Below, piece by piece: positions 25,806 to 57,447 of a stretch of DNA of 64,000 bases; position 1 is the stretch's first letter; every line of letters begins with the position of its first letter. Location of the stretch: assembly GCF_022288805.1 (NCBI RefSeq), contig NZ_JAKOPM010000009.1, positions 1 to 64,000 of the forward strand, given 5' to 3'. Position numbers and translations under genes: made by a program. Source of the DNA: Corynebacterium yonathiae. GTDB taxonomy: Bacteria > Actinomycetota > Actinomycetes > Mycobacteriales > Mycobacteriaceae. The notes beneath the pieces are model-generated. The model was not told the origin of the DNA and searched no databases. It saw only the letters and a program-made list of their open reading frames with translations.

Positions 25806-26621
25806 ATGCCTGAAGGTCACGTCATCCATCGCCTAGCCAATAAATTCAACGCGGATTATCGCGACATGCCGCTAAGGGTGACCAGCCCGCAGGGACGCTT
25901 CGCTGCGGAGGCCGAGCTTCTCGATGGCGAGCGCATCGAGCTGGCCGAGACCTACGGTAAGCACCTTTTTGTACACTTCACCGCCCAGAATCCACGGCAT
26001 ATTCTCTATATTCACTTAGGGCTCATCGGCAAGCTGCGCTTCGAGCCCCGCGAGGAAACCGGCGGACAGATTCGGGTGCGCATTGATAATGGCACAGAGG
26101 CCGCCAACCTGCGCGGACCCCAGTTTTGCCGCCTCCTTACTGAGGAGGACTACCGCGCACAATTGGGCAAGGTGGGCCAAGACCCGCTGCGCGCGGACGC
26201 CGATGTGGAGGCTTTATGGGCCAAGGTGCACAGGTCGCGGCGCAGCATCGGCTCGCTCATGATGGACCAGCACCTCTATGCCGGCGTGGGCAATATTTAC
26301 CGCGCGGAAACCCTCTTTCGCCATGGCCTCTCCCCTTTCCTGCCGGGCCGAGACGTTTCCCGTGAAACCTTTGACGCCACGTGGGCCGACCTGGTGGATC
26401 TGATGGAGTACGGGGTGGAGCACGGCCGCATCGATACGGTGCGGCCCGAACATTCTCCCGAGGCCATGGGGCGCGAACCACGCAAAGACGACCATGGCGG
26501 GGAGGTCTACGTCTATCGCCGCGCCGGCCTGCCCTGCTATGTGTGCGGCACCCCGGTGGCCGAAAGAGTCATGGAGGGGCGCAACCTATTTTGGTGTCCG
26601 ACCTGTCAACCTGCGCTTTAA
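25806..26621 (+). CDS. Fpg/Nei-family DNA glycosylase/AP lyase, Nei2-like
   Basis: A 271-residue base-excision repair enzyme. The processed N-terminus would be Pro2-Glu3 (MPEGHVIHRL), with Pro2 the catalytic nucleophile. The H2TH region contains DQHLYAGVGNIYRAE and the C-terminal zinc finger has CYVCG and CPTCQ. MPEGH at the start points to the endonuclease VIII group rather than Fpg (MPELPEV). Such enzymes remove oxidised pyrimidines, and mycobacterial Nei2 is the closest known type. The gene has a leaderless promoter. A degenerate parS (one mismatch) lies at 26355-26368 and is read as VSRET. Confidence 0.93.
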   Translation: MPEGHVIHRLANKFNADYRDMPLRVTSPQGRFAAEAELLDGERIELAETYGKHLFVHFTAQNPRHILYIHLGLIGKLRFEPREETGGQIRVRIDNGTEAANLRGPQFCRLLTEEDYRAQLGKVGQDPLRADADVEALWAKVHRSRRSIGSLMMDQHLYAGVGNIYRAETLFRHGLSPFLPGRDVSRETFDATWADLVDLMEYGVEHGRIDTVRPEHSPEAMGREPRKDDHGGEVYVYRRAGLPCYVCGTPVAERVMEGRNLFWCPTCQPAL

Positions 26622-44611: not shown

Positions 44612-46087
44612 CTAGACATTGGCATAAGGGTCGCGGATACCCAGGTATTGAACTGAGGTATATTCCTCAATACCCTCAGCGCCACCTTCGCGGCCCAAAC
44701 CGGATTGCTTGACGCCACCGAATGGGGCAGCGGCGTTGGAGATGACGCCGGCGTTGAATCCCATCAGGCCGAATTCGAGGCCGTCGGCCACGCGCCACAG
44801 GCGGTCGGAGTCTTCCGTAAACACATAGGACGCAAGACCATATTCCGTCTCGTTTGCTAGCTCTAGGGCTTCCGCCTCCTCGGTGAAGGTAAGGATGGGC
44901 GCAACTGGGCCGAAGATTTCCTCCTGGGCCACGCGGGTTTCACGTGAAACATTGCTCAGGATCGTGGGGGCATAAAAGTGCCCCTCGCCCTCGCCACGTT
45001 TGCCACCGGTGATAACGGTGGCGGCCTTTTCCACTGCGTCATCCACTAGGGCAGCAATATTGTCGAGCGCTTTAGCTTCAACGAGGGGACCGCATGTAAC
45101 GCCTTCGTCCAAACCATTGCCCACGACGAGCTTATTAAACTCCGCCGCCAACTTTTGCGTAAACTCCTCCGCCACGGACTCGTGCACTAGGAAACGGTTG
45201 GCTGCGGTGCAGGCCTCACCAATATTGCGCATCTTCGCAGCCATGGCTCCCGCTACAGCTTGATCGATATCCGCATCCTCAAAGACGATGAACGGGGCAT
45301 TACCGCCCAGCTCCATGGAGGTGCGCAGCACATTATCCGCGGCGCCCTTTAGTAGCGTCTTTCCCACCGGGGTGGAGCCGGTGAAGGAGAGCTTGCGCAG
45401 GCGGGCGTCGGCAAGCAGAGGCTCCGAAATGGCCGAGGCAGAACTTCCAGAGACCACATTGAGCACACCCTTGGGCAGGCCAGCATCGAGCATGGTTTGC
45501 GCGAAGTACTGCGAAGTCAGCGGGGTAAGCTTGGCCGGTTTCAGGACCATGGTGCAGCCTGCCGCAACGGCAGGGGCCACCTTGCGCGTTGCCATCGCGA
45601 GGGGAAAGTTCCACGGGGTAATCAGCAAGCATGGCCCGACCGGCTTGCGGCGTGTGACCATACGCAAAGTGCCCTCCGGAACGGGGGAGTAGCGACCATA
45701 GTCACGCGTTGCCTCCTCACTAAACCATCGCAGATACTCAGCGCCATAGGTGACCTCACCTTGAGATTCGGCAAGGGGCTTTCCCATTTCAAGGGTCATC
45801 AGCGTCGCGAACTCATCGGCCCGCTCGTGCACCAGCTCGAAGGCCCGGCGGAGGATATTGGCCCGCTCGCGCGGCGTGGTTCGTGCCCACTCATCTTGCA
45901 CCGCACAAGCAGCGTCAAGGGCGGCTACCGCGTCTGCGGAGTTTGCAGATTCTAGCGTGGCTATGGTCTCTCCGGTTGCGGGATTTTCCACCGTGAAAGT
46001 TTCACCGGACGATGCCTTTCGCCACTCGCCCCCAATCAGAAGTTTGGTAGGAACCTTTGCCAATACCTCGCTCGGATTTGAAGTCAT
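44612..46087 (-). CDS. gabD: NAD(P)-dependent succinate-semialdehyde dehydrogenase
   Basis: A 491-residue aldehyde dehydrogenase. The catalytic Cys293 lies in GEACTAANRF and the general-base Glu in MELGGNAPF, with a cofactor-binding LTPLTSQYFAQTM stretch before it. The fold is complete. The GabD call is by overall similarity; other aldehyde dehydrogenases cannot be ruled out. It oxidises succinate semialdehyde to succinate in the GABA pathway. A perfect parS site (44937-44950) lies inside the gene, read as Val380-Ser-Arg-Glu-Thr. It is divergent from the trp operon, sharing a 161-bp promoter region. Confidence 0.85.
   Translation of the reverse strand: MTSNPSEVLAKVPTKLLIGGEWRKASSGETFTVENPATGETIATLESANSADAVAALDAACAVQDEWARTTPRERANILRRAFELVHERADEFATLMTLEMGKPLAESQGEVTYGAEYLRWFSEEATRDYGRYSPVPEGTLRMVTRRKPVGPCLLITPWNFPLAMATRKVAPAVAAGCTMVLKPAKLTPLTSQYFAQTMLDAGLPKGVLNVVSGSSASAISEPLLADARLRKLSFTGSTPVGKTLLKGAADNVLRTSMELGGNAPFIVFEDADIDQAVAGAMAAKMRNIGEACTAANRFLVHESVAEEFTQKLAAEFNKLVVGNGLDEGVTCGPLVEAKALDNIAALVDDAVEKAATVITGGKRGEGEGHFYAPTILSNVSRETRVAQEEIFGPVAPILTFTEEAEALELANETEYGLASYVFTEDSDRLWRVADGLEFGLMGFNAGVISNAAAPFGGVKQSGLGREGGAEGIEEYTSVQYLGIRDPYANV
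44937..44950. other. parS site 1 (inside gabD)
   Basis: Perfect GTTTCACGTGAAAC, the core of the ParB centromere site. In the gabD frame (minus strand) it encodes V380-SRET. Confidence 0.93.
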
Positions 46088-46194
46088 TTACATCACCTTT
46101 CTTCTCTTTCTTAATGGATCCAACAGTACCGCACTCGTTTCCCTCAGGTGCGAATACCAATTGCGTTCTTAGAAAGCCAGCTTGCGCCGCGAGA

Positions 46195-46211
46195 ATATTT
46201 TTCGGAAATAT
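46195..46211. promoter_or_regulatory. inverted repeat in the gabD/trp divergent promoter
   Basis: ATATTT (46195-46200) and AAATAT (46206-46211) form a perfect palindrome with TTCGG between. It sits near the -35 region of the trp promoter, suitable for an operator. Which regulator binds it is unknown. Confidence 0.4.
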
Positions 46212-46235
46212 CTTCCGCTTTATAGAAATCTGGGT

Positions 46236-46241
46236 TAGAGT
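46236..46241 (+). promoter_or_regulatory. trp operon promoter -10 box
   Basis: TAGAGT lies 7 nt before the leader peptide ATG at 46249, which has no Shine-Dalgarno. The leader transcript therefore probably begins at its start codon. No clear -35 hexamer is visible. Confidence 0.5.
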
Positions 46242-46248
46242 AGCTGAC

Positions 46249-46287
46249 ATGAAGAACATGACTACTACTTGGTGGTGGCTCGCTTAA
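46249..46287 (+). CDS. trpL: trp leader peptide (MKNMTTTWWWLA)
   Basis: A 12-residue leader peptide with three consecutive Trp codons at 46270-46278, followed by Leu-Ala-stop. It starts 7 nt past a -10 box and has no ribosome-binding site, so its translation is likely leaderless. The third Trp codon overlaps attenuator segment 1. When tryptophan is scarce, ribosomes stall there and let segments 2 and 3 pair. Its length, the Trp run and the downstream segments together leave little doubt. Confidence 0.93.
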   Translation: MKNMTTTWWWLA

Positions 46288-46341
46288 CCCGCGGGCCATT
46301 CTTCGCAACCAATTTTTAGGCTCGCATTCTGCGGGCCTTTT
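46277..46341 (+). promoter_or_regulatory. trp transcription attenuator
   Basis: Four segments pair as in enteric attenuators. Segment 1 GGCTCGC (46277-46283) and segment 2 GCGGGCC (46291-46297) form the pause hairpin. Segment 3 is GGCTCGC (46319-46325) and segment 4 is GCGGGCC (46331-46337). Segments 1 and 3, and 2 and 4, are identical, so 2:3 (antiterminator) and 3:4 (terminator, followed by TTTT at 46338-46341) compete exactly. High Trp: 3:4 forms. Low Trp: stalling over segment 1 frees 2 to pair with 3. Confidence 0.92.
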
Positions 46342-46417
46342 GGCGTTTTGGTGCCTCTGCTCGTGGAAGCTCAACTTTCGTTTCCCCATTCCCCATACCC
46401 ACCGAAAGGGCACTGCA

Positions 46418-47935
46418 ATGCCATACACCGCTACCCGCGACATACCCTACGGTAATGATGCGGCCGCCATTTTTGACGGCCTCGCGCAATCGCACGACTC
46501 CCTGTTGCTCGAGAGCGCAGACATTGAGACTAAGAAAAGCCTCAACTGCCTCGCTATCCTAAGGGCAGCACTCAAAGTCACGTGCCACGGCCACAGGGTC
46601 GAGGTACAGGTCCTCACAAAAGCGGGGGAGACTCTCCTTCCTTCCCTCTGCGATCGGTTCCGCCAGCGCGTAGTTTCACGTGAAACTACTACCGCTGTAT
46701 TCGAGTTTTCCCCTTCCGCCCAACCCGACGAGCGGAAGCGACTCCTTGCCGAATCTACCGCTGACATTCTGCGTTTCCTGCAACTGGAGGCCACCTATTC
46801 CTCTCCGTTATTGCCATTCCTAGGAGGCGGATTCGCTTATGATTACCTGGCCACCTTCGAAGATCTGCCCGAGGTCAAAACGGGGGCAAATACCTACCCG
46901 GACTATGAGTTCCTGATTGCCCAAACGGTCCTTGAGGTAAACCACCTTCAGGGGACTGCACGCATAGAAGGCTGGGATATAGACCAAAGCCGCCTTAACG
47001 CGGAACTAGATTCCCTAGCGGCGCGGCAAGAGGCTCCACGCCCCACCGCACCACAGAAAGACAAGATCCGTGCGGTGGCTGATACGGATGACGCAGCGTT
47101 TCGCGCGGGCGTTGAAAAGCTCCAACGCAATATCCATGCCGGTGATATCTATCAGGTAGTGCCCGCGCGTTCTTTCACCCTGGAATGTCCGAACGCCCTC
47201 GCGGCCTACCGGGCGCTACGAGAGACCAACCCTTCGCCCTACATGTTTTACGTTCGTGGTGACGGCTATGAACTATTTGGCGCCTCGCCAGAATCCAACC
47301 TCAGGTTTACGCCGGAAGATAGGCAAGTGCAGCTCTATCCCATCGCTGGCACTCGGCCGCGCGGTCTGCGCCGGGACGGCAGTATCAACCATGAACTTGA
47401 TATCCGCAATGAACTAGAAATGCGTACCGACCAAAAGGAAATTGCGGAGCACACGATGCTGGTGGACCTAGCACGCAATGATCTCGCACGGGTAGCCGTT
47501 CCTCGTAGCCGCCAAGTGGCAGAGCTATTGCAGGTGGATCGCTACTCCCGTGTTATGCATTTGGTCTCCCGAGTCACAGCGACGCTCCACCCAGATTTCG
47601 ATGCGCTCGATGCCTATCGTGCCTGTATGAACATGGGCACCCTGACGGGCGCGCCCAAGCTTCGTGCCACCGAACTAGTGCGTCGAACGGAAGGTACACG
47701 GCGCGGATCCTACGGCGGGGCAGTGGGTTACTTGCGCGGCGATGGTGCCATGGATAACTGCATCGTCATCCGCTCCGCCTACGTCCAAGATGGCACCGCA
47801 GTGGTGCAAGCCGGTGCTGGTGTTGTCAAAGATTCCGTCCCACAGGCCGAGGCCGATGAAACGGTACATAAGGCCTACGCCGTGCTCAATGCCATTGCCG
47901 TGGCTCACGGTGCCGAATTGGAGGTACAACGATGA
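46418..47935 (+). CDS. trpE: anthranilate synthase component I
   Basis: A 505-residue enzyme from ATG 46418 behind GAAAGGGCACTGCA. An upstream in-frame reading is rejected because it runs into the attenuator. The N-terminal LLES motif (residues 29-32) lies in the tryptophan-feedback site. PIAGT with Ala (TrpE type) and AGAGVVKDS close the chorismate-binding domain. With TrpG it makes anthranilate from chorismate and glutamine. A perfect parS site at 46673-46686 is read as V86-SRET. The trpG gene overlaps by 4 nt. Confidence 0.97.
   Translation: MPYTATRDIPYGNDAAAIFDGLAQSHDSLLLESADIETKKSLNCLAILRAALKVTCHGHRVEVQVLTKAGETLLPSLCDRFRQRVVSRETTTAVFEFSPSAQPDERKRLLAESTADILRFLQLEATYSSPLLPFLGGGFAYDYLATFEDLPEVKTGANTYPDYEFLIAQTVLEVNHLQGTARIEGWDIDQSRLNAELDSLAARQEAPRPTAPQKDKIRAVADTDDAAFRAGVEKLQRNIHAGDIYQVVPARSFTLECPNALAAYRALRETNPSPYMFYVRGDGYELFGASPESNLRFTPEDRQVQLYPIAGTRPRGLRRDGSINHELDIRNELEMRTDQKEIAEHTMLVDLARNDLARVAVPRSRQVAELLQVDRYSRVMHLVSRVTATLHPDFDALDAYRACMNMGTLTGAPKLRATELVRRTEGTRRGSYGGAVGYLRGDGAMDNCIVIRSAYVQDGTAVVQAGAGVVKDSVPQAEADETVHKAYAVLNAIAVAHGAELEVQR
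46673..46686. other. parS site 2 (inside trpE)
   Basis: Perfect GTTTCACGTGAAAC; encodes V86-SRET in trpE. Confidence 0.95.
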
Positions 47936-48579
47936 GTTCGCCACACATTGTCCTTCTGGATAACTACGATTCCTTTGTTTATAACCTCGTCGATGCCCTA
48001 GCCGAGTTCGATACCACCGTATTTCGCAATACCGTTGCGGTGGAGGAGGTATTGGGGGCTCGGCCCGACATTATCGTGCTTTCCCCCGGCCCCGGCCATC
48101 CACGAGAAGCCGGCTGCATGATGGAGCTTATCGACGCCGCCCTGGGCACCACTCCCATTCTCGGCGTCTGCCTCGGCTTCCAGGCGCTTCTTGAATACCA
48201 CGGTGGGGTAGTTGCGCCCTGCGGCCCGGTACACGGGAAATCCGTTCCGATGACTCTCACGCCAGCCGGGGCTCAGCATCCCGTCTTCCACGGCCTTGCC
48301 ATCGATACCGAACCTGGTCAACCGGGTCATCTCGGCACACAAATACCGGTCGCGCGCTACCACTCGCTCGGCTGTACGGATCTCCCGCGCGGAATGCGTT
48401 GCCTGGCGCACACCTCCTCAGATATTGGTGAGGTAGCCATGGCCGCAGAGACGCTCGACGGGAGGGCCCTAGGTGTGCAATTCCACCCAGAGTCCATTCT
48501 CACACCCACTGGCCCCATCATGCTTGCACGCTGCATTCACCAATTATCTTCCCGCCCCACTATGGAGAAAGAGGACTAA
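47932..48579 (+). CDS. trpG: anthranilate synthase component II (glutamine amidotransferase)
   Basis: A 215-residue class I amidotransferase. The nucleophile is in GVCLGFQALLEYHGG, and the catalytic His-Glu in QFHPESILT. It supplies ammonia to TrpE in the tryptophan pathway. The start overlaps the trpE stop by 4 nt (ATGA). It is a distinct gene, unlike the fused amidotransferase of pabAB in this window. It ends 1 nt before trpD. Confidence 0.96.
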   Translation: MSSPHIVLLDNYDSFVYNLVDALAEFDTTVFRNTVAVEEVLGARPDIIVLSPGPGHPREAGCMMELIDAALGTTPILGVCLGFQALLEYHGGVVAPCGPVHGKSVPMTLTPAGAQHPVFHGLAIDTEPGQPGHLGTQIPVARYHSLGCTDLPRGMRCLAHTSSDIGEVAMAAETLDGRALGVQFHPESILTPTGPIMLARCIHQLSSRPTMEKED

Positions 48580-48580
48580 A

Positions 48581-49615
48581 ATGAATCAACCGGCCCTGCG
48601 AACCTTGCAAGCCTTTCTCAGCAACCCAGACCCAAACATCGAAGAAGCCACGGAGGTATTTACCCCCTTGGCCGTGGGCGCCTACGACGATATTCATATC
48701 GCAGCATTGCTCACCCATATACGCGCCCGTGGCGAAACCTTCCCAGACGTTGCCGGCGCTGCCAAGGCCTTTTTGAAGGTGGGCTATCCATTCCCCATCA
48801 CTGGAAAGGGTCTCATGGATTCCGCCGGTACTGGCGGCGATGGCGCAAATACCATCAATATAACTACGGGTGCCTCGCTCGTCGCCGCTGCCGGGGGAGT
48901 GAAGATGATCAAGCACGGCAACCGCTCGGTCTCTTCCAAGTCTGGATCTGCGGATGTTCTCGAAGCCCTTAATATCCCGCTCGACCTAGATGCCGCCCGA
49001 GCGGTCCGCCAATTTGAAGCCTCTAACTTTACGTTCCTGTTCGCCCCGGCCTACAACCCAGCTATCGCCCACGTGCAACCGGTGCGCAAGGCACTGGGCA
49101 TCCCCACCATATTCAATACCCTCGGACCCCTCTTGTCTCCAGGACGCCCATCGCTCCAAATCATGGGCATTGCAAACCCAGATCAAGGCCAGCTCATTGC
49201 GGAGGTCTTCCGAGAACTTGGCCGCGAGCGCGCCTTAGTCGTCCATGGTGCCGGCACGGATGAGATTGCCACTCATGGCACGACGCAGGCTTGGGAGCTC
49301 AGGAACAGTGAAATTTTCAACTACCAGCTCACCCCTGAGGATCTCGGCATTGAGCGCCATGAGCTGGCGGAGCTGGCCGGCGGCGATGGCGCTGCAAATG
49401 CCCTAGCTCTCCGCGCGGTATTTTCCGGCCGAGGTAAGCCCGCCCATGTGGATGCCATTGCCGCCACTGCCGGAGCCATGTTTTACCTCAACGGGACTAC
49501 CGAGAGTATCGCGATAGGAGTCGCTCACGCTAAGGATCTTATAAATGGCGGCGCTGTCGACGAGTGGCTCGATATTCACGAAAACGCCAACTATGCAGTA
49601 GGGGAGGAGGGCTGA
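48581..49615 (+). CDS. trpD: anthranilate phosphoribosyltransferase
   Basis: A 344-residue enzyme from ATG 48581; it starts 1 nt after trpG with a GAGAAAGAGGA upstream. Family motifs are GTGGDGANTINITT (about 85-98), KHGNRSVSSKSGSADVLE and the VHGAGTDEI region. It transfers phosphoribose from PRPP to anthranilate. The stop overlaps the trpCF ATG (TGATG). Length is normal. Confidence 0.96.
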   Translation: MNQPALRTLQAFLSNPDPNIEEATEVFTPLAVGAYDDIHIAALLTHIRARGETFPDVAGAAKAFLKVGYPFPITGKGLMDSAGTGGDGANTINITTGASLVAAAGGVKMIKHGNRSVSSKSGSADVLEALNIPLDLDAARAVRQFEASNFTFLFAPAYNPAIAHVQPVRKALGIPTIFNTLGPLLSPGRPSLQIMGIANPDQGQLIAEVFRELGRERALVVHGAGTDEIATHGTTQAWELRNSEIFNYQLTPEDLGIERHELAELAGGDGAANALALRAVFSGRGKPAHVDAIAATAGAMFYLNGTTESIAIGVAHAKDLINGGAVDEWLDIHENANYAVGEEG

Positions 49616-51021
49616 TGACGGTGAAGAAATTACCTACCGTGCTCCAAGAGATCGTCGCCCAGCGCCGCACTCATCTGCCGGTCATTCGTGAAAGGTTGTC
49701 CCATGTGGACCTCGCTAGCGTGCCACCCTCGGAGCGCTCGCTTGTCAAAGCACTCGATGGCACCAATCGTTTCATCATGGAATGTAAGTCTGCGTCACCA
49801 TCTCTCGGGTTGATTCGCGCGGACTACCGTCCGGGCGATATCGCCCGCACCTACTCACTCTATGCCTCCGCCATTTCAGTGCTTTGCGAGCCTGAGCGCT
49901 TTGGCGGCGACTATGACCATCTGCAAACCGTCGCGCTATCTACCCATCTGCCGGTGCTGTGCAAAGACTTCATTATTGATCCCATTCAGGTTTACGCCGC
50001 ACGCCACTACGGCGCTGATGCCATCTTGCTCATGATGTCTATCGTTGATGATGACACCTACGTTGAACTCAAGGCGCTGGCTGATGAACTCGAGCTGGAC
50101 GTCCTGACTGAAGCCATCACAGAGAAAGAAGTCCAACGGGCCTTACAGTTAGGTGCGGATATCATCGGTATCAATAACCGCAACCTCCACGATCTCAGCA
50201 TCGACCTAGGGCGCACCAATCATCTCGCTTCCCATATTTCAGAAGGAAAGACTATCGTATCGGAGTCTGGAATCCGCGACAACGCCACCGTCCGCCGGCT
50301 GGGCTCCCACGTGCACGCATTCCTTGTAGGCTCACAACTCAGCCGCCAAGAGGATATCGATCGGGCAGCTCGCGACCTTGTCTACGGCACCAATAAAGTA
50401 TGCGGTCTGACGTCTGCCTCCGCTGCGCAAGCGGCGCGCGCCGCAGGGGCCCGTTATGGAGGACTTATCTTCGCGCAGGATTCGCCGCGTGGTGTTTCAC
50501 GTGAAACCGCGAGAGAGATCATCGCCGCGGAGCCTGGCCTGGACTACGTTGGCGTGACCCGCTCTTCGGATATCGAAGAACTCCGGAGCCTAGCCAAAAT
50601 CCCCGGGCTCAAGGCCCTTCAGCTCCACGCCCCATTCCAAGGAAGTGGGGAAGCGGAGCGAGCATTCCTACACGCGGTCCGCGGGATCGTGGGTGGATTA
50701 CCCCTCTGGCGTGCCGTCGATATGCTCGACCCCGAATTTGCAGCATTGGCGACTGACCTTTCCCCAGAAGCAGACGCACTAGTCCTGGACTCCGGAAGTG
50801 GCGGGTCAGGAACCGCGTTCGAGTGGAACACCATTCCCCCTGAGGTTAAAGATAAGTCCTTCCTCGCCGGCGGACTCCGGTTGGACAACCTCGAAGAAGC
50901 GCTGTCGATAGGCACCATGGGTCTTGACCTCAACTCGGGCCTTGAGTACGCACCCGGCCGAAAGGATGCCTCGCTTGTGTCCCAAGCTTTCAACATCATC
51001 CGACGCTATACACACCCATAG
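49615..51021 (+). CDS. trpCF: bifunctional indole-3-glycerol-phosphate synthase / phosphoribosylanthranilate isomerase
   Basis: A 468-residue fusion, normal for Corynebacterium. The TrpC domain (about 1-255) has MECKSASPS and DILGAD-like [12 protein letters not shown] and VSESGI. The TrpF domain (about 260-468) has [11 protein letters not shown], then LQLHAPFQG and [15 protein letters not shown]. They are steps 3 and 4 of the pathway (isomerase, then indole-glycerol-phosphate synthase). A parS site at 50494-50507 is read as V294-SRET near the start of the TrpF half. Confidence 0.95.
50494..50507. other. parS site 3 (inside trpCF)
   Basis: Perfect GTTTCACGTGAAAC; encodes V294-SRET in trpCF. 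Confidence 0.95.
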
Positions 51022-51034
51022 AAAGAACACGATC

Positions 51035-52240
51035 ATGACCGTTTCACGTGAAACACTCCTTCCAGCATACTTTGGTGAATTCGGTGGACAGTTCGTCCCT
51101 GAATCCCTGATTCCCGCCCTCGACCAACTTGAGAAGGCTTTTGTAGAAGCACAGAATGACCCATCTTTTCGCGAAGAGCTCAGCGGTCTTTTGCGTGACT
51201 ACCTTGGCCGCCCTACACCACTCACGGAGGCAAAAAACATAGGCGGCAAGGCAAGAATCTTTCTCAAGCGTGAGGACCTCGTACACGGTGGTGCGCATAA
51301 GACGAACCAAGTCCTCGGACAAGCCCTCTTGGCTAAACGTATGGGAAAGACTCGCATCATTGCGGAGACGGGAGCGGGCCAGCACGGCACCGCCACCGCA
51401 CTCGCTTGTGCTCTCTTGGGGCTCGAGTGCGTGATCTATATGGGAGCAAAAGACGTCGCGAGACAGCAACCCAATGTCTTCCGTATGGAGCTGATGAACG
51501 CGAAAGTCGTAGCCGTTGATACCGGATCCGGAACACTTAAGGACGCGGTGAATGAAGCGCTCCGCGATTGGACCGCTACATTCCATGAATCCCACTATCT
51601 CCTTGGCACTGCGGCGGGACCCCATCCTTTCCCCACGATTGTCCGGGAGTTTCATAAGGTGATTTCCAAGGAAGCTAAGCAGCAGATGCTTGAGCACACC
51701 GGTGGTCTTCCGGATGTAGTGGTGGCCTGCGTCGGAGGCGGTTCCAATGCAATCGGCATGTTCGCGGACTTCATAGAGGAAGAACAGGTGGAACTTGTCG
51801 GTGCTGAGCCTGGCGGTGAAGGACTGGACTCTGGCAAGCACGGCGCCACCATCAACAACGGAACTGTAGGCATCCTCCACGGCGCACGAAGCTACCTCAT
51901 GCGGAACACGGACGGTCAAGTGGAAGAATCATATTCCATTTCCGCCGGACTCGACTACCCGGGCGTGGGCCCACAGCATGCTTACCTACACTCCAGCGGA
52001 CGGGCAAAATACGTTGGCATTACGGACGCCGAGGCATTAGAAGCATTCCAACTACTTTCCCAGCGGGAAGGCATCATCCCCGCCCTTGAATCTTCCCATG
52101 CCCTTGCTTACGCATTGAAGCGGAACGACGAAGATATAACCATTTTGGTCTCTCTTTCGGGCCGTGGCGACAAAGATATCGACCATGTTCGCCACACACT
52201 TGAGGCCCATCCAGAATTTAAGCTGCAGGAGGAGCACTAA
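51035..52240 (+). CDS. trpB: tryptophan synthase beta chain
   Basis: A 401-residue PLP enzyme from ATG 51035; the 14-nt gap after trpCF holds GAAAGAA as its only ribosome-binding candidate. The PLP lysine is Lys89 in [12 protein letters not shown]. The phosphate cup [10 protein letters not shown] and [12 protein letters not shown] motifs are present. It condenses indole with serine. Its very N-terminus, [18 protein letters not shown], is set by a parS site at 51041-51054. Normal TrpB length. It overlaps trpA by 1 nt. Confidence 0.97.
51041..51054. other. parS site 4 (5' end of trpB)
   Basis: Perfect GTTTCACGTGAAAC, 6 nt after the trpB start codon; encodes V3-SRET. Confidence 0.95.
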
Positions 52241-53106
52241 TGAGCAACCGATACGAGAACCTATTCCGGTCACTCCACGAAAGGGGAGAGGGCGCGTTCG
52301 TCCCCTTCCTCATGTTGGGCGATCCAACCCCAGAGGACGCGCTGGACATAGTGCGCACCGTTGTCGCGGCCGGTGCTGACGCATTAGAACTAGGCGTTCC
52401 ATTTTCTGATCCCGTGGCCGATGGGCCAACCATTCAGGCGTCTCACCTGAGGGCGCTTGCGGCCGGCGCCACCGTAGATTCCGCCCTAGAACAGGTACGG
52501 GCGATTCGCTCAGAATTCCCTGAGCTTCCCATCGGCATGTTGATTTACGGCAACGTGGCTTTCACGCGCGGCTTCAACCGCTTCTATTCCGAGTTCGCGG
52601 AAGCAGGTGCGGATAGCATCTTGCTTCCCGACGTCCCCGTACGCGAAGGTGCTCCATTTATCGCTGCAGCAGAAAAGGCTGGCATCGATCCAATCTTCAT
52701 CGCCCCGGCTCGCGCTTCCGCAAGCACTCTCGAGGGCGTTGCTCACCACTCGCGCGGCTATATCTACGCCATTTCGCGCGATGGCGTGACAGGTACGGAG
52801 AGGGAATCTGAGACGCTCGGGCTTGAAGAAGTCGTAGCAAACATCAAAAGATTCGATGGTCCTCCGGTACTGCTCGGCTTCGGCATTTCAGCACCCGAGC
52901 ATGTACGCGATGCGGTGGCAGCCGGTGCTGAGGGCGCTATTACTGGCTCAGCCATTACTAAGATCATCGATCGCCACGTTTCACGTGAAACGGCTGCAGA
53001 GAGCACCCAGATTGAAGGGAATTCAAGCCGCGCTCCCATGGACCCTGCGCTGCACAAAGAACTCGCTGAGTTTGTCACCCGCATGAAGGCGGCGACCCGA
53101 AAATAG
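52240..53106 (+). CDS. trpA: tryptophan synthase alpha chain
   Basis: A 288-residue TIM-barrel subunit that cleaves indole-3-glycerol phosphate. The catalytic Glu lies in FVPFLMLGDPTPEDALDIV and the Asp in DSILLPDVP. The phosphate loop is GFGISAPEHVRDAV then GAITGSAITKII. Its last 45 residues include the parS-encoded VSRETAAES (V247) and a variable tail. The start overlaps trpB's stop (TAATG). It is the last trp gene. Confidence 0.97.
   Translation: MSNRYENLFRSLHERGEGAFVPFLMLGDPTPEDALDIVRTVVAAGADALELGVPFSDPVADGPTIQASHLRALAAGATVDSALEQVRAIRSEFPELPIGMLIYGNVAFTRGFNRFYSEFAEAGADSILLPDVPVREGAPFIAAAEKAGIDPIFIAPARASASTLEGVAHHSRGYIYAISRDGVTGTERESETLGLEEVVANIKRFDGPPVLLGFGISAPEHVRDAVAAGAEGAITGSAITKIIDRHVSRETAAESTQIEGNSSRAPMDPALHKELAEFVTRMKAATRK
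52978..52991. other. parS site 5 (inside trpA)
   Basis: Perfect GTTTCACGTGAAAC; encodes V247-SRET, near the C-terminus of TrpA. Confidence 0.95.
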
Positions 53107-53120
53107 TCCCACAACGAATC

Positions 53121-53158
53121 AAACCCCTCGTCTGCTCGCGGCAGCTGACGAGGGGTTT
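53121..53158. terminator. bidirectional terminator after trpA
   Basis: AAACCCCTCGTC (53121-53132) and GACGAGGGGTTT (53147-53158) form a perfect 12-bp stem. It is 15 nt past the trpA stop and 15 nt past the convergent symporter stop, so it likely ends both. Confidence 0.88.
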
Positions 53159-53172
53159 GGTTTAGAGAGCCT

Positions 53173-54384
53173 CTACACGGTTGCTTTTGCAGATTCCTCT
53201 TCGGAGGGTCCATTCTTTTCCCCTGCGAATTTGTCTACGATCATTGCAATGGCGCCGTCGCCGGTGACATTGGCGGCAGTGCCGACCGAGTCGATGGCAA
53301 TGTAGGCGGCGATCATGAGCGCCACCATGCCATCATCAAAGCCCATCATGTCTGCCAATAGGCCGGCCGCCACCATCACGGCACCACCCGGAACGCCCGG
53401 AGCCGCAATCATCATGATTCCCAACAAGAAGATGAAACCAAGTCCGGTACCGGTACTAATATCGAGGTTTGCCATATACACGATCGCAAAGGCATAGAGC
53501 GTCAGCTTAATCATCGAACCGGACAAGTGAATGGTCGCGCACAGCGGGATGACAAAGCTAGCTACCGGCTTGGAAATTCCATTCTTTAGCGTGGACTCCA
53601 AAGACACCGGAATAGTCGCGGCAGACGAGGAGGTTCCCAAAGCCGTGAAATAAGCCGGCAGCATATTGCGAAGAGCCTTGAAGGGATTCTTCCCGGTAAT
53701 CGCACCAGCAATGATGTATTGCAAGACCAGGTAGACCAGGGTCATAACAACCGCCAAAATCAAAACCTTGGCAAAGGCCGAAAGTACCGAGCCCAGATTG
53801 CCATTCATGCCCAATCCCAAGAACATGCCAAAGATGTAGAAGGGCAAAATCGGCACAACAAAGCCCCAGATTACCTTGACTACGACGTTCTCCAATTCCT
53901 TGGTGACAGCGTACAAGGTATCGGACTTCACTGTAGTCATCGCTACACCGATGCAGAACGACAACAAGAGGGCAGTCATAACCTCAAAAGGCGGTGCCAT
54001 CTCCACCTCGAAGTAGGGAGAAAGTGCACCCTCATCAATATCGGAGACATTAGTAATCAGATTCTGACCGCTAAGCATGGTGGGGTAGAGCCAGTGGGCA
54101 AGCACGTAGGCAAGAAGACCGGCGACAATAGTGGAGCCATAGGATATCCCCGCTGTAACCCCCAGCCACTTACCGGCACCACGCCCAAGCCCCGCAATGG
54201 ACGGAGCGATCAGCGCGAAAATAAGAACCGGGATAAAGAAGTTGAGAAAGTTGCTAAATAGTCCATTGAAAGTGGCGAATACGCGACCAAACCATTCTGG
54301 AGCGAATCGGCTGACCACCACGCCAAGGATGATGGCAACGATAATGCGGAACAGCAAAGATTCCGAAAGTTTCTTGAGATTCAT
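53173..54384 (-). CDS. dicarboxylate/amino acid:cation symporter (DAACS family)
   Basis: A 403-residue transporter with about eight helices and two re-entrant loops. It shows the signature GTSSSAATIPVSLES for loop HP1 (about 242-256) and VPGGAVMVAAGLLADMMG for HP2. These proteins take up glutamate, aspartate, succinate or serine/threonine with Na+ or H+. The exact substrate is not readable; SstT-like serine/threonine uptake and GltP-like acidic amino acid uptake are both possible. It is convergent with trpA and separated by a shared terminator. Confidence 0.9.
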   Translation of the reverse strand: MNLKKLSESLLFRIIVAIILGVVVSRFAPEWFGRVFATFNGLFSNFLNFFIPVLIFALIAPSIAGLGRGAGKWLGVTAGISYGSTIVAGLLAYVLAHWLYPTMLSGQNLITNVSDIDEGALSPYFEVEMAPPFEVMTALLLSFCIGVAMTTVKSDTLYAVTKELENVVVKVIWGFVVPILPFYIFGMFLGLGMNGNLGSVLSAFAKVLILAVVMTLVYLVLQYIIAGAITGKNPFKALRNMLPAYFTALGTSSSAATIPVSLESTLKNGISKPVASFVIPLCATIHLSGSMIKLTLYAFAIVYMANLDISTGTGLGFIFLLGIMMIAAPGVPGGAVMVAAGLLADMMGFDDGMVALMIAAYIAIDSVGTAANVTGDGAIAMIVDKFAGEKNGPSEEESAKATV

Positions 54385-54576
54385 ATACTTACAATCAGAT
54401 CAGGTGCTCCACCTCTAGGACTAGCCGACCGAGGCGAAACAACGCAGTGCGGAGACAGGGGTCGATTCAATATCTATCAACCGACCTTAAATGCATACTA
54501 CCTGAGCGCACACAGCCACAGAACACTCGGCCTAGGCACAATTTTTATCTCAGCGCTACAGGGTTAAACTGAGTAC

Positions 54577-55047
54577 ATGATCGCAGTGGGAATCATCTTC
54601 TTAATCCTCGCCGTCCTCCTCATCGTTGTGGGTACCATGGCCGCAACCAAACGCCTCCCCGGAAACAACTACATTGGCTTGCGACTTCAAGAGATCCGCA
54701 AATCTCGCGAAGCATGGGATAACGCCCACCGCATCGCTGGTCCATTCTGGATCCTCAGCGGCGTTTGCCTAGTCTTCGGTGGCATCGTTGCACTTAGCGC
54801 AGAGGGCTGGATGTGGCTCCTTCCTGCTCTTACCTTTGTGGCGGCAGTTCTCGCCCTTTCTGTAGGTTCCAACCTCGGCTCTCGTGCCGCGTTCCTCTAC
54901 GAACAGGCACACGCTAATGAAGAAGGTTGTGGGGATTCCTGCAATTGTGGTTCCGAGGGTTGCGGTGGGGAAGAGGCCGCCGCGGCTTCTGCACCCCAGG
55001 TCGATGTCAACGCACTCCGTCACGCCGCACGAGAATCTGACAGATAG
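54577..55047 (+). CDS. SdpI-like membrane protein with cysteine-rich tail
   Basis: A 156-residue protein. One helix at residues 2-22, then the SdpI-type motif LPGNNYIGLRLQEIRKSREAW and NAHRIAGPFWILSGV, then helices at about 58-75 and 81-103. SdpI of B. subtilis is an immunity protein; most homologues have no known role. The C-terminal tail has Cys-rich EGCGDSCNCGSEGCGG, an unusual addition that could bind a metal or cluster. Single gene with an AT-rich promoter upstream. Confidence 0.8.
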   Translation: MIAVGIIFLILAVLLIVVGTMAATKRLPGNNYIGLRLQEIRKSREAWDNAHRIAGPFWILSGVCLVFGGIVALSAEGWMWLLPALTFVAAVLALSVGSNLGSRAAFLYEQAHANEEGCGDSCNCGSEGCGGEEAAAASAPQVDVNALRHAARESDR

Positions 55048-55375
55048 CAACGTCTGCTGCACCACCACCCCCTCTGGAGAAGAATCACGCCCATCCAGCG
55101 GGGGAATTTTTGTAGCTATGCCCCTTCGCTTGCGTAGACCACTGAATGTTTTCCGATAGTAACAGTGACGTTATGGGTCAGGCTTATTACATCTTCTTGT
55201 TCAGTCACTTACGATATCGCGTCACCCCTTTTAACATATTGAACCATGCAACCCTAGGCTCTGCGAATAATTGACTTACCGCGCTATTCGCGTTACTGCT
55301 AATAACGATGGAGATTGCGTAAAGCTTCCGGGGAACCTAGAGAGTAAAGAGCATCAAAGACCTACGCTAGGCAAA
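55048..55375. other. 328-bp noncoding gap after the SdpI-like gene
   Basis: No gene seen apart from the small ORF starting at 55376. A TTGACT hexamer is at 55271-55276, but no clear -10 box pairs with it. A TACGCT near 55362-55367 could instead serve as a -10 for the downstream peptide. Confidence 0.4.
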
Positions 55376-55603
55376 ATGATCCATATGAAGAAAAGCACCG
55401 CCCTCGCAGCCATCGCCGCTTCGACCTTTGTCATTGGCGCTTACAACGAGCAAGGCCACAAAGAGGCGACACCCACACCGGTAGCGGAGGGGCAGTCAGC
55501 ACATAGCATCGTTGATGATTTAGGCATTGAATCTGGCACCTATGAACTCACCCCTACGCCTAGTGGTCTCCCTGAAACATGGGAGGGCTATCTGATTAGC
55601 TAA
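55376..55603 (+). CDS. small exported or membrane-anchored peptide
   Basis: A 75-residue reading from ATG 55376, or 72 from ATG 55385 (MKKSTALAAIAASTFVIG). The N-terminus is a basic pair followed by a hydrophobic stretch (about residues 8-22), like a signal peptide or anchor. The rest is hydrophilic with Thr-Pro repeats (EATPTPVAEG, ELTPTPSGLP). It has no recognised family. A parS site lies 9 nt after the stop. Whether it is translated is uncertain; no strong ribosome-binding site is seen. Confidence 0.5.
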   Translation: MIHMKKSTALAAIAASTFVIGAYNEQGHKEATPTPVAEGQSAHSIVDDLGIESGTYELTPTPSGLPETWEGYLIS

Positions 55604-55611
55604 CTTTCTGT

Positions 55612-55625
55612 GTTTCACGTGAAAC
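55612..55625. other. parS site 6 (intergenic)
   Basis: Perfect GTTTCACGTGAAAC, 65 bp upstream of the Rieske gene. Confidence 0.95.
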
Positions 55626-55689
55626 TTTGGATTCGATTGGCCACACAGCTGACGCCCAATGGACCCGCATGACCGGCTAGACTAGGGGC

Positions 55690-56055
55690 ATGACTAAGTG
55701 CTCTCGCCGAATCTTCTTGCTTGGTACCGCTACCACCTTTGCAGGTGCCTACGTAGCGGCCTGTGGTTCTTCTCCGTCCGCGGAAATCGCAGCTACGGAA
55801 ATTCCGGTCGGATCCGCAAAGATTGTAGATGGCGTCATTTTTACTCAGCCGAAAGAAGGTGAGTTCAAGGCCTATTCCCAGACCTGTCCGCACCAGCACA
55901 ATCCGATCACCAAGATCGATGGCATGACGGCCACCTGCACCGCACATAACACCTCCTATGACCTCAGCGATGGAAGCGTAATCTCCGGACCAGGCCGCGA
56001 TCCCCTGGAAGAATACGAAGTTAAACAAGACGGCTCTAATGTCACTACGGCCTAG
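55690..56055 (+). CDS. Rieske [2Fe-2S] lipoprotein, Tat-type export signal
   Basis: A 121-residue protein. It begins MTKCSRRIFLLGTATTFAGA with a twin-arginine-like signal and a lipobox ending in YVAAC. The Rieske ligands are visible as C-P-H (residue 76-78) and C-T-A-H (residue 93-96), 14 residues apart. The cluster would be on the outside of the membrane. Small soluble Rieske proteins of this kind act as electron carriers or in envelope redox reactions. Flanked by two parS sites (55612 and 56076). The partner is unknown. Confidence 0.88.
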   Translation: MTKCSRRIFLLGTATTFAGAYVAACGSSPSAEIAATEIPVGSAKIVDGVIFTQPKEGEFKAYSQTCPHQHNPITKIDGMTATCTAHNTSYDLSDGSVISGPGRDPLEEYEVKQDGSNVTTA

Positions 56056-56075
56056 TGCGCATTCCTCCCTCTGTG

Positions 56076-56089
56076 GTTTCACGTGAAAC
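56076..56089. other. parS site 7 (intergenic)
   Basis: Perfect GTTTCACGTGAAAC, 20 nt after the Rieske stop. Confidence 0.95.
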
Positions 56090-57138: not shown

Positions 57139-57447
57139 ATGGCGAATTACCTATACGTACGAACTGAACTAACCGTGCCCGGCGTAGGCTCGGCAATCCA
57201 CTTGGCGGAAATGGAAGAGCAAGATGCGCGCAGCTGCCGAATGGTCCGGATGATCGCTCTGGATCCCTCGGATGCCATAGTCGGCGTGGCCACACCGACC
57301 AGTTCCACGGGAAACGTGGATCAGCCGCAGGAGGTTGTCCCGCACCCGGATACCTATGATGATTTCCCGGACATTAGCGCCCAGTACGTGGACCCGTCTC
57401 ACTTCGACGCCCTGTGGTCCGAAGCTACCGCCAAGTTCGGCCTTTAG
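57139..57447 (+). CDS. small hypothetical protein
   Basis: A 102-residue soluble, acidic protein starting MANYLYVRTEL. No motif or domain is recognised. A possible beta hairpin region is SCRMVRMIALDPSDAIVGVA, and the C-terminus is rich in Asp and Pro (HPDTYDDFPDISAQYVDP). It lies between the SBF transporter and the convergent azlD fragment. Confidence 0.65.
   Translation: MANYLYVRTELTVPGVGSAIHLAEMEEQDARSCRMVRMIALDPSDAIVGVATPTSSTGNVDQPQEVVPHPDTYDDFPDISAQYVDPSHFDALWSEATAKFGL

Follow-up and report, generated by a model that had tools for sequence, protein, structure and literature searches.

The 64,000-nucleotide stretch of DNA analyzed here (hereafter the window), which comes from a Corynebacterium close to C. 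yonathiae, carries seven exact copies of the 14-bp palindrome GTTTCACGTGAAAC, which we take to be the core of parS, and these copies are, judging from their sequence and surroundings, almost certainly the parS sites of a chromosomal ParABS system. This reading rests on their exact repetition, on their uniqueness in the genome, on their nearness to dnaA and parAB, and on a conservation of the DNA at the level of codons in five genes. The TrpCF protein encoded in the window shares 100% identity with that of C. yonathiae. The sites and the genes that surround them are as follows (no strand is assigned to the sites):

44612..46087, reverse strand: aldehyde dehydrogenase family gene (ALDH; Pfam PF00171), holding parS 1
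44937..44950: parS 1, in the aldehyde dehydrogenase gene (reverse strand), codons VSRET
46418..47935, forward strand: trpE (Pfam PF00425/PF04715), holding parS 2
46673..46686: parS 2, in trpE, codons VSRET
49615..51021, forward strand: trpCF fusion (Pfam PF00218/PF00697), holding parS 3
50494..50507: parS 3, in the TrpF half of trpCF, codons VSRET
51035..52240, forward strand: trpB (Pfam PF00291; named from its operon context), holding parS 4
51041..51054: parS 4, in codons 3-7 of trpB (M-T-VSRET)
52240..53106, forward strand: trpA (Pfam PF00290), holding parS 5
52978..52991: parS 5, in trpA close to the C-terminus, codons VSRET
55612..55625: parS 6, outside any supported ORF, upstream of the Rieske-domain gene
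55690..56055, forward strand: Rieske-domain gene (Pfam PF00355), between parS 6 and parS 7
56076..56089: parS 7, outside any supported ORF, on the downstream side of the Rieske-domain gene, at 464 bp from parS 6

A preliminary description of this DNA had placed the seven copies at these positions and reported no eighth perfect copy in the window, and both statements hold. It had also named many more copies over the genome as evidence against a centromere; in the whole draft genome (2,476,753 bases in 71 contigs), the perfect copies are the window's seven only, and all of them lie inside 11.2 kb on one contig, clustered rather than scattered. Several exact palindromic copies are thus present, far above chance: the earlier estimate of one occurrence per 270 Mb equals 4^14 and is valid for a uniform base composition, and when up to three mismatches are allowed, the window contains 9 matches, a number reached by none of 100 dinucleotide shuffles (mean 1.65, largest 6). 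The trpCF–trpB pair had been singled out as the densest part of the cluster, wrongly so, as its two sites are 547 bp apart whereas those at 55612 and 56076 are separated by 464 bp.

The genes expected of such a system lie on the same contig, beyond the end of the window:

C71:76583-77623, reverse strand: parB
C71:77630-78478, reverse strand: parA, adjoining parB
C71:81552-83189: gene that we take to be dnaA

Past the window end, the murJ-like gene runs on and is followed by, among others, what are presumably a sigma factor gene, trxB, and an amidase-like gene; after parA come genes that we take to be gidB and yidC, then dnaA and dnaN. The distance from the cluster to parB is 20.5 kb, and that to dnaA 25.5-36.6 kb. 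Since parA, parB, and dnaA are all found on the murJ side, the proposed closeness of the cluster to oriC, in agreement with the murJ end, is supported, with oriC taken as near dnaA. The trp operon points towards dnaA and is therefore, from these coordinates, probably read against the replication fork. The ParB protein harbors the ParB_N, HTH_ParB, and ParB_C domains (Pfam) together with the CTP-binding motif GERRWRA, and its closest PDB proteins are Spo0J/ParB, so that a parB gene with a helix-turn-helix, a CTP-binding motif, and a dimerisation domain adjoins the gene of a parA ATPase, the arrangement of a ParABS system. An SMC gene is also present, scoring above the curated cut-off.

The proximity of parB, parA, and dnaA, the uniqueness of the sites in the genome, and the precedent of ParB ChIP-seq in C. 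glutamicum, as given in the partial text of PMC7083940, all support the proposal that the cluster is a ParB-binding chromosomal centromere. By analogy with C. glutamicum and with other ParB proteins, ParB dimers would load at each parS, close as CTP-dependent clamps, and slide onto the adjacent DNA, and the clamps may join in a single nucleoprotein complex covering about 11 kb; this ParB–parS complex would be moved by ParA, and SMC–ScpAB could be loaded at the parS cluster.

Five of the seven sites lie inside genes (aldehyde dehydrogenase, trpE, trpCF, trpB, and trpA), and each encodes Val-Ser-Arg-Glu-Thr. As the palindrome is the same on both strands, it reads VSRET in phase 0 and xFHVKx in phase 2, and these are the only possible readings because phase 1 contains TGA. 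Across 46 Corynebacterium loci (the window and 45 others), we counted 219 perfect sites. Supported ORFs contain 118 of these: 104 in phase 0 (about two fifths of them the trpCF site alone, orthologous sites being counted once per locus), 14 in phase 2, and 0 in phase 1. VSRET as the sole reading is accordingly rejected, FHVK being used by 14 of the 118 coding sites. The remaining 101 of the 219 fall in no supported ORF; ORF support having been judged automatically, some of these are misses, one example being the trpCF site of L031 at a contig end. In several species, parS is found at or next to possible ORF starts reading MFHVK (ATG TTT CAC GTG AAA; L025:15714, L048:15912, L053:14749 and 15123, L059:16429).

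Within these genes, it is the DNA itself that appears to be conserved. Over seven loci of the window's clade, the five sites contain 20 whole codons, and every one of them is identical. Outside the sites, identity in the same loci is found for 452 of 1638 codons (28%) at amino-acid-conserved columns, a set into which as many as 60 codons from upstream of the aligned part may enter; since the seven loci are related (the window and L015 are nearly identical), their codons do not count as independent tests. The base just past the 14-mer, at the Thr wobble position, varies, with all four letters occurring across the sites. When five more loci are added, the amino-acid-conserved site columns remain identical in 19 of 19 cases, against 193 of 1399 outside; the twentieth column, the Val of trpB, is Asp or Glu in the added loci, hence the one or two mismatches of the trpB site there. 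From these codon comparisons, the coding sites are predicted to do two jobs, as a ParB target and as the codons for VSRET.

It could be argued that selection acts on the protein instead, VSRET being a functional peptide and the identity of the DNA incidental, since all five coding sites of the window encode it and since Val is kept at the first position in three of the four TrpF rows that lack the site. We regard this as extremely improbable: the peptide occurs in five different proteins, its synonymous codons are themselves identical (20 of 20, against the 28% found outside), two further perfect copies fall outside supported ORFs, the FHVK reading occurs in other species, and rows without the site carry other residues. 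A spread of the sequence by recent duplication or by a mobile repeat deserves just as little credence for the window, where the 12 bases flanking each site are unlike one another and where related species carry sites at the same gene positions, even if duplicated segments truly make up the arrays of one other genome (G138, described below).

The presence of four of the seven sites in trp genes might rather suggest operators, bound at their CACGTG palindrome by a regulator of the trp operon and its neighbors, with no centromere involved. This is very unlikely, if marginally less so than the two preceding ideas, given that most sites are within coding sequence and extend to the ALDH gene and the surroundings of the Rieske gene, that the sites of other species are in other genes or intergenic (those of G138 forming two arrays outside the trp genes), and that the trpCF parS of C. 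glutamicum recruits ParB, as stated in the available portion of PMC7083940. Under the centromere reading, a selection exerted on DNA dictates amino acids in tryptophan enzymes, which matters when conservation in those proteins is interpreted.

The 16-mer TGTTTCACGTGAAACA, put forward in the preliminary description as the form to be searched for, does not hold as the conserved unit in the window: both of its outer bases are present in 0 of the 7 sites, and these bases vary. The full 16-bp TGTTTCACGTGAAACA is one form of the consensus, and membership of parS does not require it. In the sampled loci, the outer bases are merely a preference, both being present in 26 of 81 distinct non-coding sites; sites lacking the outer T/A of that consensus could nevertheless differ in affinity.

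Beyond the perfect copies, the genome holds 1 site with one mismatch (at 26355) and 4 with two, and as a class these near-matches are background, a reversed control pattern giving 8 matches in the same genome at two mismatches or fewer. Two of the near-sites were compared across relatives, the first being:

26355..26368, no strand assigned: candidate one-mismatch site GTTTCCCGTGAAAC, reading VSRET, in a formamidopyrimidine-DNA-glycosylase-family gene (Pfam H2TH, Fapy_DNA_glyco)

From 25 genomes searched, 12 loci were fetched; the letters of this site are identical in the window's own genome and in 3 of the 11 other loci, and they are absent in 8 of the 12. In the 4 genomes concerned (own included), its whole codons are identical in 4 of 4 cases, and 104 of 214 codons outside are identical as well (about 0.06 by chance), which leaves it a candidate only: it may possibly be a weak eighth parS site. 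The second, at 57302 (GTTCCACGGGAAAC, two mismatches), recurs in the two nearest clades, where 11 of 12 loci have it, and is rejected as a parS site, its conservation being explained by the protein, since L054 has a synonymous GGC and L025 another base.

At the scale of the genus, at least one perfect copy is found in 241 of 242 Corynebacterium genomes, when the reversed pattern is found in 0 of 242; the only exception (G210) is a genome of 53% completeness. In a locus scan based on six peptide patterns, none of which contains VSRET, 42 of the 46 loci have the trpCF site, down to 55% TrpCF identity; as relatives were found by TrpCF similarity, Corynebacterium with more distant TrpCF are under-represented among them. 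The four loci without the trpCF site form one clade, in which the trpE site is in the other phase. A broader pattern, P-R-x-site, is found in 161 of the 242 genomes and gives no clean count of the trpCF site, as it takes in other places and misses variants such as K-R, but it fits the trpCF site being common rather than universal.

To account for the distribution of the sites on a 44-locus tree (two short loci dropped, site columns excluded from its building), the least numbers of changes are 1 for ALDH, 1 for trpCF, 4 for trpE, 4 for trpB, and 3 for trpA, a perfect site anywhere in the gene being scored for trpE and trpB and loci without an aligned ALDH being scored as lacking its site. In rows without the site, the variability percentile of the site segment reaches 0.95 in trpE (25 rows), 0.99 in trpB (34 rows), and 1.00 in trpA (30 rows); it is 0.97 in trpCF, from 4 rows only, and 0.55 in ALDH, from 3 rows only, a segment that is not unusually variable and departs from the pattern. 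As far as these alignments indicate, the trpCF site dates far back and persists in most loci, the other sites come and go, and those of trpB, trpA, and trpE occupy segments that are strongly variable in the species lacking them.

High numbers of sites are rare, as more than 12 perfect copies are found in only 2 of the 242 genus genomes, G120 (18) and G138 (45), and the most found among 298 genomes drawn from the order, a set without G138, is 10. Among five genomes picked for high site numbers, G120 and G118 have the trpCF site, and G138, G142, and G067 lack it. The 18 perfect sites of the G120 draft are spread over three contigs (L092; G120:C4, C7, C34). L090 (G142) and L091 (G067) have 12 perfect sites each, none in the trp genes aligned in the fetched stretch.

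G138, one assembly with one contig of 2,866,540 bases, is the extreme outlier of the 242 genomes, with two arrays in the same gene neighborhood as the window's cluster:

L076:7322-16723 (G138:C1:2706322-2715723): two arrays, 45 perfect and 13 one-mismatch parS sites

All 45 perfect sites lie inside 9.4 kb, the median spacing over all 58 sites is 88 bp in one array and 97.5 bp in the other, and no site with two mismatches was found in the 20 kb fetched around them. One array separates yqgE from o57139, a place occupied in the window by azlC and free of sites there. The other is bordered by an FMN-oxidoreductase gene and the Rieske gene, and it falls into the Rieske-transporter interval, the one to which parS 7 belongs in the window. 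The G+C of the two stretches is lower (0.47 and 0.45), and parB is 16 kb away. Both arrays are apparently non-coding, as no window protein was matched inside them, no open run in them exceeds 128 codons, and neither of the two ORFs of at least 110 residues that start there matches a Pfam family. The arrays have segments in common that have diverged (245 bp at 88% and 197 bp at 92%), and their growth was therefore at least partly by duplication. The coding trpCF anchor is absent from this genome, its TrpF segment reading SPRAITPTTA. In a first look at 2 candidates per genome, none of the other 241 genus genomes showed extended similarity to the one array that was compared; short matches occur in 22 of the 241 and coincide with a parS copy in all 9 examined as loci. 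Searches for a plasmid or phage origin of one array (L076:13190-16730 or -16760) and for known RNAs in both arrays gave no match.

Taken together, these observations lead us to favor, with some reservation, a view of the Corynebacterium centromere as a place rather than a fixed set of sequences. The old trpCF anchor would be widely kept, while other parS sites would be born in the codons of tolerant protein segments, leaving a VSRET footprint, and die again; in G138, up to 58 sites in a duplicated and apparently non-coding array would have taken the place of the lost coding anchor, as a bacterial analogue of a regional centromere.

The window's cluster is an already known kind of centromere, and it is the genus-wide pattern and the arrays of G138 that are worth following. 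Because related species gain and lose such sites, the cluster can be used for studying the evolution of bacterial centromeres; the expansion of the centromere region, called an interesting open question in the consulted part of PMC5815017, can be addressed by comparison and experiment, as gains, losses, and the expansion of one array can all be followed in Corynebacterium within a single gene neighborhood. The open-licence literature on coding parS, parS arrays, and Corynebacterium parS, to the extent of its accessible text, gives 22-24 as the highest number of sites.

The closest known case is that of C. glutamicum, which, according to the partial text of PMC7083940, has ten parS sites that span 35 kb and lie 73 kb away from oriC; the trpCF site is the only coding one, and ParB ChIP-seq peaks are seen at all ten. 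The window resembles it in its single parS cluster on one side of oriC, its trpCF site, and its ParB and SMC, and differs from it in that its seven sites, five of them coding, are packed into 11 kb at a distance of 25.5-36.6 kb from dnaA. The C. glutamicum sites are described there as a B. subtilis-like 16-bp consensus, and the likeness to ours is one of description. As in Caulobacter crescentus, there is a tight cluster near the origin with sites inside genes, and since those of Caulobacter are in essential genes or genes of high fitness cost, coding parS sites are not new; in contrast to Caulobacter, where only the half-palindrome GTGAAA is conserved, the whole 14-mer is exact in the window (PMC5815017, in part). 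For larger sets, the same source gives 22 sites in S. coelicolor and in L. innocua. In Myxococcus xanthus, the sections seen of PMC3899335 report 22 parS in 3 kb near parA, with the consensus TGTTCCACGTGGAACG, and those of PMC3778016 report 24 sites in the region. This dense array is a precedent for the arrays of G138 rather than for the window, the two arrays of G138 totalling 45 perfect sites and 13 with one mismatch, against the 22 in 3 kb of M. xanthus (PMC3899335).
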